43,986 nt of DNA, from NCBI GenBank assembly GCA_020723845.1, contig DYIC01000001.1:7309-51294 (forward strand), read 5' to 3'. Of this stretch, positions 11,893 through 21,356 are shown in pieces. The notes below the pieces were generated by a model. That model was given only the letters and a program-made list of their open reading frames with translations. It had not been told where the DNA came from and made no database searches. The first letter of the stretch is position 1; each line of letters begins with the position of its first letter. Both the position numbers and the translations under genes were made by a program. This DNA comes from Hydrogenophaga sp. GTDB lineage: Bacteria; Pseudomonadota; Gammaproteobacteria; Burkholderiales; Burkholderiaceae_C.

Positions 11893-13065
11893 ATGGTCGC
11901 CTCCCGTTCTTCCGTCGATCCGGCGCCGCCGGCCACCCTGTTGCACACGGTCACCATCGAGCTGGGTGAGCGCAGCTACCCGATATTCATTGGGCACGGC
12001 CTGCTCGACGATCCGCAGACCTGGGCCGGACTGCCGCGGGCCTCGACCGCGGTCGTGGTCAGCAATGAGATCGTCGCGCCGCTGTACGCGGCGCGGCTGC
12101 GCGCGGCGCTCGCGCCGCACTATGCCCGCGTGCTGGAGGTCGTGCTGCCCGATGGCGAGGCGACCAAGGATTGGGCGACGCTGAACCGGATTTTCGATGC
12201 GCTGCTCACGCACGGGTGCGATCGCAAAACCGTGCTGTTGGCGTTGGGCGGGGGCGTCGTCGGCGACATGACCGGTTTTGCCGCCGCCTGCTACATGCGC
12301 GGGGTGCCGTTCGTGCAGGTGCCCACGACGCTGCTGGCGCAGGTGGATTCGTCGGTGGGCGGCAAGACCGCGATCAACCACCCGTTGGGCAAAAACATGA
12401 TCGGCGCCTTTTATCAGCCGGTCCGGGTGGTGTGCGACCTGGCGACGTTGGCGACGCTGCCCGAGCGCGAGTACTGCGCCGGCCTGGCGGAGGTGATCAA
12501 ATACGGGCCGATCCACGACTCCGTGTTTTTGGACTGGATCGAGGCCCACATCGAGGCGTTGCGCTCGCGCGAGCCGGCGATCGTGGCCCACGCGGTGCGC
12601 CGCAGTTGCGAGATCAAGGCGGCCGTGGTCGGGCAGGACGAGCGCGAGTCGGGCCTGCGAGCGATCCTCAATTTTGGGCATACCTTCGGTCACGCGATCG
12701 AGGCCGGACTGGGCTATGGCCAGTGGTTGCACGGCGAGGCGGTGGGCTGCGGCATGGTGATGGCCGCCGTGCTGTCTCAGCGGCTGGGCTTGGTGTCGCC
12801 AGCGTATGTCGAGCGGCTGACGCGCCTTGTCGCGGCGGCGGGGCTGCCCACACGCGCGCCGGTGCTGGCGCCCGACAACGCGGCGCGCTACCTGTCGCTG
12901 ATGCGCGTGGACAAAAAGGCCGAGGCGGGCGAGATCCGCTTCGTCGTTGTCGATGAGCGCGGCCAGGCGTTCGTGCGTGCGGTGCCCGACGCGGTGGTGG
13001 CCGAAGTGATCGAGGCCTGCGCGGCGGGTGGAGGCGACACCGATGCTGGCACCCTACGCGTGTGA
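11893..13065 (+). CDS. aroB: 3-dehydroquinate synthase
   Basis: This 390-residue NAD-dependent enzyme converts DAHP to 3-dehydroquinate, the second step of the shikimate pathway. The glycine-rich [51 protein letters not shown] and the metal-binding [11 protein letters not shown] and LHGEAVG motifs are present. The ATG at 11893, ten bases after aroK, is preferred over an upstream ATG inside aroK. The 3' end overlaps dgt by 23 bases. Confidence 0.97.
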
Positions 13066-14218
13066 TCCGGCACGCAGTCGCGGCCGCCGTCACCCCGAGC
13101 CGGCGGCGCCGACGCGCAACGATTTTCAGCGCGACCGGGATCGCGTCATTCACTCGACCGCGTTTCGGCGCCTGGTGTACAAAACCCAGGTCTTCCTCAA
13201 CCACGAGGGCGACCTGTTTCGCACGCGGCTGACCCATTCGCTGGAGGTGGCGCAGCTCGGGCGCAGCATCGCTCGGCCGCTGGGGCTGCACGAGGATTTG
13301 GTGGAGGCGATCGCGCTCGCGCACGACCTGGGTCACACCCCGTTTGGGCACGCGGGGCAAGACGCGCTCAACGCCTGCCTGCACGAGGACACGGGCCCAG
13401 CGGCGCTGGAGCCACCCGGCGAGGACGAGCCGTATGGCGGCTTCGAGCACAACCTGCAGAGCCTGCGCGTGGTGGATGCGCTGGAGGAGCGCTACCCGGA
13501 CTTCGACGGCCTGAACCTGTGCTTCGAAACACGCGAGGGCATCCTCAAGCACTGCTCCCGCGCCAACGCCCAGTGGCTGGAGGCGCGCGAGCCCGGCGGC
13601 GTAGGGGCCCGCTTTCTGCGCGGGCAATCGCCGTCGCTGGAGGCGCAGTTGGCCAACGTGGCCGACGAGATTGCCTACAACGCGCACGACATCGACGACG
13701 GCGTGCGCAGCGGGCTGCTGACGCTGGAGCAGCTGGAGGCGGTGGCGCTGTTCGACCACCACCGGCGTGCTGCCTTGGCCGATCATCCACGGCTACAGGG
13801 CCGGCGGTTGCTCTACGAGACGATCCGCCGCATGCTCAGTGCCCAGGTGTACGATGTGATCGACGCCACGCGGCAGGCGTTGCGCGAGGCCGACGTCCGC
13901 TCGCTCGACGACGTGCGATCGCGCGCGCCCCTGCTGGGCTTTTCGCCCGCGATGCGCGAGGCGTCCGCCGCCCTCAAGCGGTTTTTGCTCACGCACTTGT
14001 ATCGCCATCCCCAGGTGTTGGAGACGACCGGACGGGCGCGGCGTATCGTGGCTGATCTGTACCAGGCCTATTGCGCCGATCCGTCGCTGCTGCCAACGGG
14101 TGCCCGGCGCGCCGGGCTGTCGCTGCGGCGGCAGGTGGCGGACTACATCGCCGGCATGACCGACCGGTTTGCGATCCGTGAACACGAGCGCCTGACCGGC
14201 GAGCGGCTGTTTACCTGA
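13043..14218 (+). CDS. dgt: Deoxyguanosinetriphosphate triphosphohydrolase-like protein
   Basis: This 391-residue HD-domain enzyme belongs to the type 2 dGTPase-like group, which hydrolyses dNTPs to nucleosides and triphosphate. [12 protein letters not shown] (His65), the HD pair His94-Asp95 in [15 protein letters not shown], and [12 protein letters not shown] supply the metal ligands. The ATG at 13043, ten bases after a GGTGGAGG stretch, is chosen; an in-frame GTG at 13028 is an alternative. Substrate preference cannot be read from the sequence. Confidence 0.93.
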
Positions 14219-14236: not shown

Positions 14237-14974
14237 ATGGCACGCTTGCCCCGGCTGGCGGTGACGGACGCGGCCCATCTGGTGGTGTGGCGCGGGCACA
14301 ACGGGCAGCCCGTCTTTGTCGACGACGACGACCGCCAAGCGTGGCTGGCGTCGATGGCGGAGGGCGCGGTGCGCGAGGGCGTGGAGTGGCATGGCCACGC
14401 GTTGCTGGTGTCGGCCCTGTGGATGCTAGCCACCCCGCGCCGCGAGGGTGCCTTGTCGCGCTGGATGCAGGCGCTCGGGCGAACGTATGTGCGCCGCTTC
14501 AACCAGCGCCATGGGCGGCGCGGCACCCTGTGGGACGGTCGCTACCGGGCGGCGGTGCTGGCGCCCGACTGGGTGCTGCCGGCATTGGTCTTTTTGGACC
14601 AGGAGCCGGTGAGCGAGGGATTGGCCGCCACGCCGGAGGCCTGGCCTTGGTCGAGCCATCGCCATTACATGGGCGCCGAGCCACAGCGGGCCGTGACACC
14701 CCCCGCTGCTTGGTGGTCGCTGGGCGACACGCCGTTCGCGCGCGAAGCGGCCTACCGCCGCCTGGTGCAGGAGGGGTTGTGCCGGCAGCAGGCGCAGCGC
14801 CTGCGCGAGGCCGCTCTCAAGGGGTGGCCGGTAGGGGATGCCACCTTTTTGGCGGCGTTGCAGGCCCAGACTGGCCGCCGCACCGAACCGGCGCGGCCTG
14901 GGCGCCCACGCAAGGTGGTCAATGATCTGTCCCCAAATAATTACGAGAAGGCTGCGGTGTCAATGAAATTGTGA
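14237..14974 (+). CDS. RayT-type (REP-associated) tyrosine transposase relative with degraded HUH motif
   Basis: This 245-residue protein is recognisable as a REP-associated Y1 transposase. It has the start MARLPRL, HLVVWRGHNGQPVF, the tyrosine helix MQALGRTYVRRFN, GTLWDGRYRAA, WSSHRHYMG and the C-terminal basic RPGRPRK. The metal-binding HUH motif, normally NHVHLL before TP, reads SALWML here, so both histidines are gone. Cleavage by the normal chemistry is therefore unlikely, although the frame is fully open. The last 20 or so codons run into REP-like repeats and are not family sequence. It lies 18 bases after dgt. It may be a decaying gene or a domesticated DNA-binding protein. Confidence 0.8.
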   Translation: MARLPRLAVTDAAHLVVWRGHNGQPVFVDDDDRQAWLASMAEGAVREGVEWHGHALLVSALWMLATPRREGALSRWMQALGRTYVRRFNQRHGRRGTLWDGRYRAAVLAPDWVLPALVFLDQEPVSEGLAATPEAWPWSSHRHYMGAEPQRAVTPPAAWWSLGDTPFAREAAYRRLVQEGLCRQQAQRLREAALKGWPVGDATFLAALQAQTGRRTEPARPGRPRKVVNDLSPNNYEKAAVSMKL

Positions 14975-14994: not shown

Positions 14995-15023
14995 TTGCCC
15001 GTTATGCTGCAATGCACTATCCT
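14995..15023 (+). promoter_or_regulatory. Candidate sigma-70 promoter of gltBD
   Basis: TTGCCC (14995-15000) and TATCCT (15018-15023) are separated by 17 bases, each matching 4 of 6 consensus positions. The predicted start near 15030 would give a leader of about 35 bases, with AAGGAG at 15053-15058 in front of the GTG. It begins right after the REP-like repeat. Confidence 0.45.

Positions 15024-15064: not shown

Positions 15065-19852
<4,788 letters not shown>

Positions 19853-19889: not shown

Positions 19890-21356
<1,467 letters not shown>

Follow-up and report, generated by a model that had tools for sequence, protein, structure and literature searches.

A predicted catalytically dead relative of TIR-associated Y1 transposases, conserved upstream of gltB in Burkholderiales and probably acting at the gltBD promoter

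The window analyzed here, a 43,986-nt stretch of a Hydrogenophaga sp. genome (contig DYIC01000001.1), carries an open reading frame (ORF) for a transposase-like protein between dgt and gltB. The initial annotation had described it as an intact reading frame of the RayT family, and the frame is indeed open from start to stop codon between these two neighbors. Two short boxes, a predicted gltB promoter, gltB itself, and an ORF read as gltD complete the locus (Table 1). The ORF extends approximately 20 codons beyond the GRPRK tail of the protein (window 14909–14974), through box 1, and its stop codon adjoins box 2; in some sister species (L032–L034), the stop codon adjoins box 1.

Table 1. Features of the dgt–gltB region in the window, with the basis of each assignment
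Feature	Position in window	Strand	Basis or remark
dgt, upstream neighbor	13028–14218	+	18-bp gap to the ORF
ORF of inactive gltB-linked TIRYT-derived protein, 245 aa	14237–14974	+	ATG to TGA, open
Codons 60–62, Ala-Leu-Trp in place of the HUH metal motif	14414–14422	+	alignment
Residues 77–89, MQALGRTYVRRFN, kept; equivalent of DNA-binding helix alpha3	14465–14503	+	profile alignment
Residues 96–104, GTLWDGRYR, kept	14522–14548	+	aligns with E. coli region around W94/Q95
Codon 119, Phe instead of the catalytic Tyr (Y---NP)	14591–14593	+	alignment
Codon 123, Glu instead of the metal-binding Asn (Y---NP)	14603–14605	+	alignment
Residues 222–224, GRP of the basic tail	14900–14908	+	G and R at 1.00 in per-genus representatives (88 intact, 57 dead)
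Box 1, TCTGTCCCC, TIR-derived, inside the 3' end of the ORF	14926–14934	+	
Box 2, TCTGACCCC, directly 3' of the stop codon	14975–14983	+	49 bp from box 1
Predicted gltB promoter, -35 TTGCCC	14995–15000	+	consensus match at fixed offset from box 2
Predicted gltB promoter, -10 TATCCT	15018–15023	+	consensus match, 17-bp spacer
gltB, operon presumed regulated	15065–19852	+	ORF and tblastn neighbors
ORF read as gltD, 3' of gltB	19890–21356		

A profile built from 60 homologues matched the E. coli TnpA_REP structure (PDB 4er8, E 6e-4) and other solved transposases, and the alignment to 4er8 places the HUH motif at positions 60 and 62 and the nucleophilic Tyr of the Y---NP motif at position 119. Y---NP is the motif of this class, and its Asn (N119 there) is a metal ligand (PMC6006769). 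The window protein reads A60-L61-W62 where canonical relatives have H-x-H, as the initial annotation had recognized, and it also carries F119 and E123 (E123-P124) at Y---NP. In other words, four catalytic positions are lost, not two, and on the evidence of the alignment the protein is catalytically dead beyond what the first reading had proposed. Two details of that reading need correction: the TYVRRFN segment, taken for the catalytic tyrosine helix, sits in the equivalent of DNA-binding helix alpha3, and the N-terminal HH, thought to be reduced to AH, reads HL, with H14 retained and H15 changed to Leu. The GTLWDGRYR block and the GRPRK tail are retained as described. R82 aligns with K82 of the E. 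coli protein in the profile alignment (contact residue of helix alpha3; PMC8266576), and the E. coli region around W94/Q95 is involved in recognition of the 5' guide tetranucleotide (PMC6006769). An HGH at residues 52–54 does not look like a rebuilt metal site, because H54, as judged from the sequences, is missing from the six other genus members compared; H52 is invariant in the 60-row alignment. Single-sequence searches returned little: Pfam Y1_Tnp (PF01797) did not match the window protein, whose sole Pfam match was attributable to chance, NCBIfam REP_Tyr_transpos (NF047646) scored 28 bits (E 1.7e-6), below its curated cut-off of 80, and a PDB search with this one sequence gave no match. 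An AlphaFold2 model from a two-row alignment (window protein and L001) reached a pLDDT of 38, and the metal site was judged from the profile alignment only.

The gene is widely conserved in its family. A homologue of the window protein was present in 370 of 399 sampled genomes of the family and in all 11 genomes of the genus, with an open frame in each of the 11. After 12 duplicate rows were dropped, 235 homologues were available; the first 117 were those nearest to the window protein, and 80 more stretches were then added, mostly one per genus, together with other families. The 79 profile positives had all been positive before and do not form a second prevalence estimate. In the fetched stretches, 205 of the 235 homologues shared the strand of gltB and preceded it, 192 at a distance of no more than 300 bp, and these 205 represent 138 genera, with 120 in the family group of the window (a Macromonas record included) and 18 in eight other families. 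gltB was present in 70/70 gene-positive genomes tested versus 16/29 gene-negative genomes, some of the latter being incomplete; gene absence here means a one-protein search of partly draft genomes, G387 alone having been re-tested with the family profile. The gene is thus a conserved orthologous gene and not a stray transposon. Identities of approximately 26–45%, mostly over the full length, to relatives in other families place its descent among TIRYTs (TIR-associated Y1 transposases; RAYT group 1 or subclass 2.1), and the family profile found relatives in 84 of 229 class genomes. For the 17 best-scoring class relatives (other families; best 17 of the 84 genomes with matches), neither dgt nor gltB was found in the fetched stretch. 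Viral contigs yielded three relatives. One member of the genus (G234) has, in addition, a distant relative with intact H, H, Y, and N, and no dgt or gltB in the fetched stretch (L037).

Loss of the catalytic residues recurs across these orthologues. HUH is kept in 127 of the 205 gltB-linked proteins and lost in 78; among the 127, 108 keep all of H, H, Y, and N, while 13 have lost Tyr and 9 Asn, and among the 78, Asn is lost in every case and Tyr in 66. Counted by genus, 81 are intact, 50 dead, and 7 mixed. On a quick LG+G4 tree from which the catalytic columns were left out, HUH status changed at least 25 times by parsimony, with 11 independent contrasts on supported branches. Asn was co-lost with HUH in 9.6 of the 11 contrasts on average (median p 0.002); Tyr was co-lost in 4.8 and showed no difference in 6.1, which is not significant alone (median p 0.06). 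By comparison, all of H, H, Y, and N are present in 28 of the 29 TIRYT-type relatives that were not observed at gltB. These 29 comprise 12 of the 30 rows that were not gltB-linked in the fetched stretches and the 17 best-scoring class relatives of the 84 genomes with matches; left out were 11 gltB-type rows, moved or at contig ends (several HUH-less), and 7 rows of a second Y1 family, 3 of them with residues lost. Comparison of one representative per genus, intact (n = 88) versus dead (n = 57), showed that H60 falls from 1.00 to 0.02 and N123 from 0.93 to 0.00, while R3, R6, Q78, R82, R102, R169, G222, and R223 stand at 1.00 in the dead proteins. Therefore, as far as the alignment columns tell, the loss is concentrated at the active site, and putative DNA-contact residues and the tail are spared.

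The second Y1 family, longer (approximately 290 aa, with an HTH-like C-terminal end by eye), occurs in the same genomes and was not beside gltB in the fetched stretches (L257, L258, L259, L261, L262, L263, and L264). Three of its seven members (L262, L263, and L264) have lost parts of HUH and the Asn with the frame open, so catalytic loss also occurs outside the gltB lineage, and this family may represent a parallel change from enzyme to pseudoenzyme.

A gene that has lost all four catalytic residues, in a family where such loss recurs across genera, might simply be a decaying transposase gene, and the initial annotation had left this possibility standing. It had noted that decay would be indicated by intact HUH homologues in sister species combined with neutral dN/dS at this locus, and had asked whether the loss was common to relatives. 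HUH and Tyr are lost in 11/11 genus members, which argues against chance. Intact orthologues do exist in other genera; selection, on the other hand, is far from neutral. Under a codon model, omega was 0.118 in the 11 genus members, all HUH-negative, and the log-likelihood was 413 units better than with omega fixed at 1 and kappa at 2 (lnL -4981 versus -5394). Other HUH-less sets gave omega values of 0.124, 0.086, and 0.105 and HUH-bearing sets 0.087, 0.089, and 0.096, so that dead and intact sets are alike, although saturated synonymous sites at such divergence may lower all these values. Omega of 1 was rejected in each of the 5 sets, out of 7, in which it was tested. With the frame open in all 11 genus members and no variation at the putative DNA-contact and tail residues among dead representatives, simple decay was rejected by the codon test, and we give it next to no credence. 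A gene whose catalytic residues are gone, yet whose frame is open and under strong purifying selection, points to domestication, the first half of the suggestion that this might be a domesticated REP-binding protein.

The second half of that suggestion concerns the DNA that such a protein might recognize. Two boxes, TNTGTCCC and TCTGACCCC, sit between the gene and gltB. A direct pair was found in 177 loci, with the box starts 48 bp apart in 96, 49 bp in 54, and 50 bp in 24, and in 135 of the 177 loci box 2 starts 19–20 nt upstream of a sigma70-like promoter of the form TTGnnn-N16-18-T(A/G)nnnT. Among intact loci, 119 of 127 had the direct pair, and among dead loci 58 of 78, so the boxes are less regular in dead lineages by this strict test (p 2e-4); a coding control gave 11 of 205. 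Because this test undercounted loci in which the second box is inverted (seen by eye), a loose test accepting either orientation was added afterwards, and it detected pairs at 124/127 intact and 70/78 dead loci versus 6/205 in the coding control. The 12-base core TCTGWCCCCAAW has exactly two matches in the window genome (a 2.27-Mb draft, 95.7% complete), both at this locus. Across the family, the strict pair pattern was present in 234 of 399 genomes, mostly once, with two in about 10 genomes among the matches listed, not every one of which was seen at gltB; a reversed-pattern control gave about 22 matches in 21 of 399 genomes. In G387, which has no detected gene, the match is a GC-rich stretch on a contig other than that of gltB and was taken as chance. 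A dispersed REP population was rejected because the core has just these two exact matches and the pair pattern mostly occurs once per genome; the core search thus found no dispersed cognate family of the kind that accompanies REP-associated RAYTs (groups 2 and 3).

Mobile-type relatives have the same core on both flanks in inverted orientation, with one copy upstream of the start codon and one near the stop codon. The left end was found in 16/17 and the right end in 14/17 class relatives, and in 9/12 and 10/12 order relatives, respectively. Near-identical copies within one genome occurred in G471 only, so mobility is demonstrated by copies there and is taken from the TIR flanks for the others. 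Furthermore, the box core equals, read on the other strand, the GGGGWSAS core carried by the ends of published TIRYTs (PMC3733652). Judging by this match and by its position around mobile-type relatives, the boxes are most likely old transposon ends. With no dispersed box repeat and with relatives flanked by TIRs, REP binding in the usual sense is not supported, so only the domesticated half of the earlier suggestion stands.

The two ends have had different fates. A left inverted end was detected in 67 of 127 intact but in only 5 of 78 dead loci (p 9e-13), and it was absent within 120 bp of the ORF start codon in the window; the direct right-side boxes remain in 58 of the 78 dead loci. The retained part of the ends is thus the part at the gltB promoter. 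This asymmetry bears on the idea that the protein is an immobilized repressor of its own element, silencing residual transposases or itself, with gltB serving merely as a safe neighbor. Such a repressor would suit the inverted end located approximately 55 nt upstream of the protein's own start in mobile-type relatives and many intact orthologues, but 73 of 78 dead loci have no left end that was found while the gltB-side boxes mostly stay, the window genome holds no further exact copies of the 12-base core, and gene retention tracks gltB. We consider this explanation improbable.

Because the gene and the boxes are usually adjacent, their joint loss could be a single deletion, and the association was therefore examined where they are apart. 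In nine genomes from seven genera, the gene is not beside gltB (G179, G298, G358, G384, G188, G115, G458, G605, and G615); it lies approximately 731 kb from gltB in G615 and on another contig in G179, G384, and G115, and it was not found in the gltB flank in G188. A direct pair with 47–49-bp spacing is nevertheless present at gltB in eight of the nine, G605 being the exception, and at least four of these eight proteins lack HUH (G179, G384, G458, and G115). No direct pair was found in any of 11 genomes (six genera) with readable sequence upstream of gltB and no detected gene (Fisher p 7e-5 by genome; 6/7 versus 0/6 by genus, p 0.005), and the loose test gave 9/9 versus 2/11. Within a single genus (g86), G188 and G384 have both gene and boxes, and G263 and G326 have neither. 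The 11 gene-negative loci fall in six genera and several share a neighborhood, so they do not amount to 11 events. G131 (L119/L286) has boxes without a detected gene; since its contig stops less than 200 bp upstream of gltB, this genome was excluded from the 11, as were L121, L126, L127, and L130, whose contigs start too near or inside gltB. In three of the loci without a detected gene (L120, L122, and L291), gltB follows the apparent end of a glutamine synthetase gene in a closely similar upstream region; there, gltB seems to have been relocated or replaced along with the loss of gene and boxes.

The boxes stay at gltB when insertions or relocation separate them from the gene, and a mere 3' appendage of the gene was rejected for this reason. 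Their geometry is fixed relative to the promoter and not to the gene, which would also suit promoter elements for another host factor, or AT-rich UP-like DNA, the protein being kept for an unrelated role in single-stranded DNA or replication; a survey of the class speculates on roles of such proteins at replication forks (PMC6006769). The boxes, however, track the gene even when the two are not adjacent (8/9 versus 0/11), and they carry the core that also flanks mobile-type relatives. This alternative is unlikely.

Another possibility is that the boxes work not as duplex operator sites but as hairpins of RNA or single-stranded DNA, in the manner of an attenuator-like switch. Binding to folded single strands is described for Y1 proteins (PMC8266576), the box 2 consensus is quasi-palindromic, strong spacer hairpins occur in L115, L071, and L226, and in intact loci the arms were more complementary than under cross-locus pairing (box 1, p 0.003; box 2, 0 of 300 permutations). 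In dead loci, by contrast, complementarity was not significant (p 0.09 and 0.067), median z was -0.30 in intact and 0.16 in dead loci, the window has no hairpin, and the predicted gltB start site is downstream of both boxes. A conserved hairpin was accordingly rejected as a general feature of the boxes, and a folded switch is a very improbable account of them. Rfam gave no match in the 5 loci examined. At L115, L071, and L226, long near-perfect inverted repeats that differ in sequence fill the 48-bp spacer, which suggests that in those lineages the site exists in a folded-strand form.

We therefore favor, with a probability of roughly 0.68, a transposase turned into a dedicated DNA-binding protein for the gltBD promoter, in which catalysis has become dispensable and has been lost repeatedly. 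A TIRYT would have settled upstream of gltB before several Burkholderiales families diverged and would have retained its DNA-recognition surface. The protein would now bind two copies of its former right end, frozen 48–50 bp apart and positioned approximately 20 nt upstream of the gltB -35 element, and, when bound, would control gltBD transcription. Such control would not require DNA cutting, and the metal site and the nucleophile have accordingly been lost many times, including in this genus. Binding to the boxes and control of gltBD are what we infer from sequence comparison. The boxes lie upstream of and clear of the promoter hexamers, so activation or a role in promoter architecture would, as a guess, be somewhat likelier than repression (about 60:40); repression is possible, and a position upstream of -35 is by itself no argument for it.

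More broadly, and with confidence only a little on the favorable side of even, the family may constitute a one-target transcription regulator derived from an inactivated single-strand HUH transposase, with its own ends as the operator, established at the gltBD promoter in at least nine Burkholderiales families and having changed from enzyme to pseudoenzyme some 10–25 separate times without giving up that role. If this is true, it would be a bacterial counterpart of the transposase-derived transcription factors of eukaryotes, and control of ammonium assimilation across a large order of bacteria may lie with a protein that could readily be taken for a transposase. What the host would maintain at a single promoter is the DNA-binding part, and enzyme and pseudoenzyme versions both occur in nature at the same place. 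Why bacteria retain single-copy RAYT-type genes is treated as open in the cited papers, and for one lineage this family would offer an answer that is concrete and can be tested.

Neither a gltB-linked nor a catalytically dead RAYT was mentioned in the literature searched. To enter the selected set of the 2018 survey, a protein had to have HUH as well as Tyr (PMC6006769), so members without HUH or Tyr would drop out of it, and surveys that discard such proteins would overlook 91 of the 205 gltB-linked members in the present sample. Domesticated single-copy RAYTs and TIRYTs are already known; a RAYT lineage that is tied to a single host promoter, retains its ends there, and has repeatedly lost catalysis was not seen in that literature. 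The window protein resembles TIRYTs (RAYT group 1 or TnpAREP subclass 2.1) in its homologous core, its length (approximately 240 aa in TIRYTs), and the GGGGWSAS TIR core that its boxes share (PMC3733652; PMC6006769). In the TIRYTs aligned in PMC3733652, HUH and Tyr were reported to be conserved in all. The window protein, in contrast, lacks HUH, Tyr, and Asn, and is a single copy fixed at gltB; in place of the flanking inverted GGGGWSAS repeats of an active TIRYT, there is no inverted left copy, and the right end is doubled, in direct orientation, beside a host promoter. The TnpAREP/RAYT proteins of groups 2 and 3 (E. coli and Stenotrophomonas) are likewise single-copy domesticated Y1 proteins, with a common fold indicated by the profile, but they keep the catalytic center and dispersed GTAG REPs (PMC8266576). 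SfsB and the Xre antitoxins are, like the present case, DNA binders of mobile elements kept for a host operon (PMC8987985); these, however, were already HTH regulators, whereas the candidate regulator described here would be an HUH transposase that lost its activity and acts on what were once its own ends.
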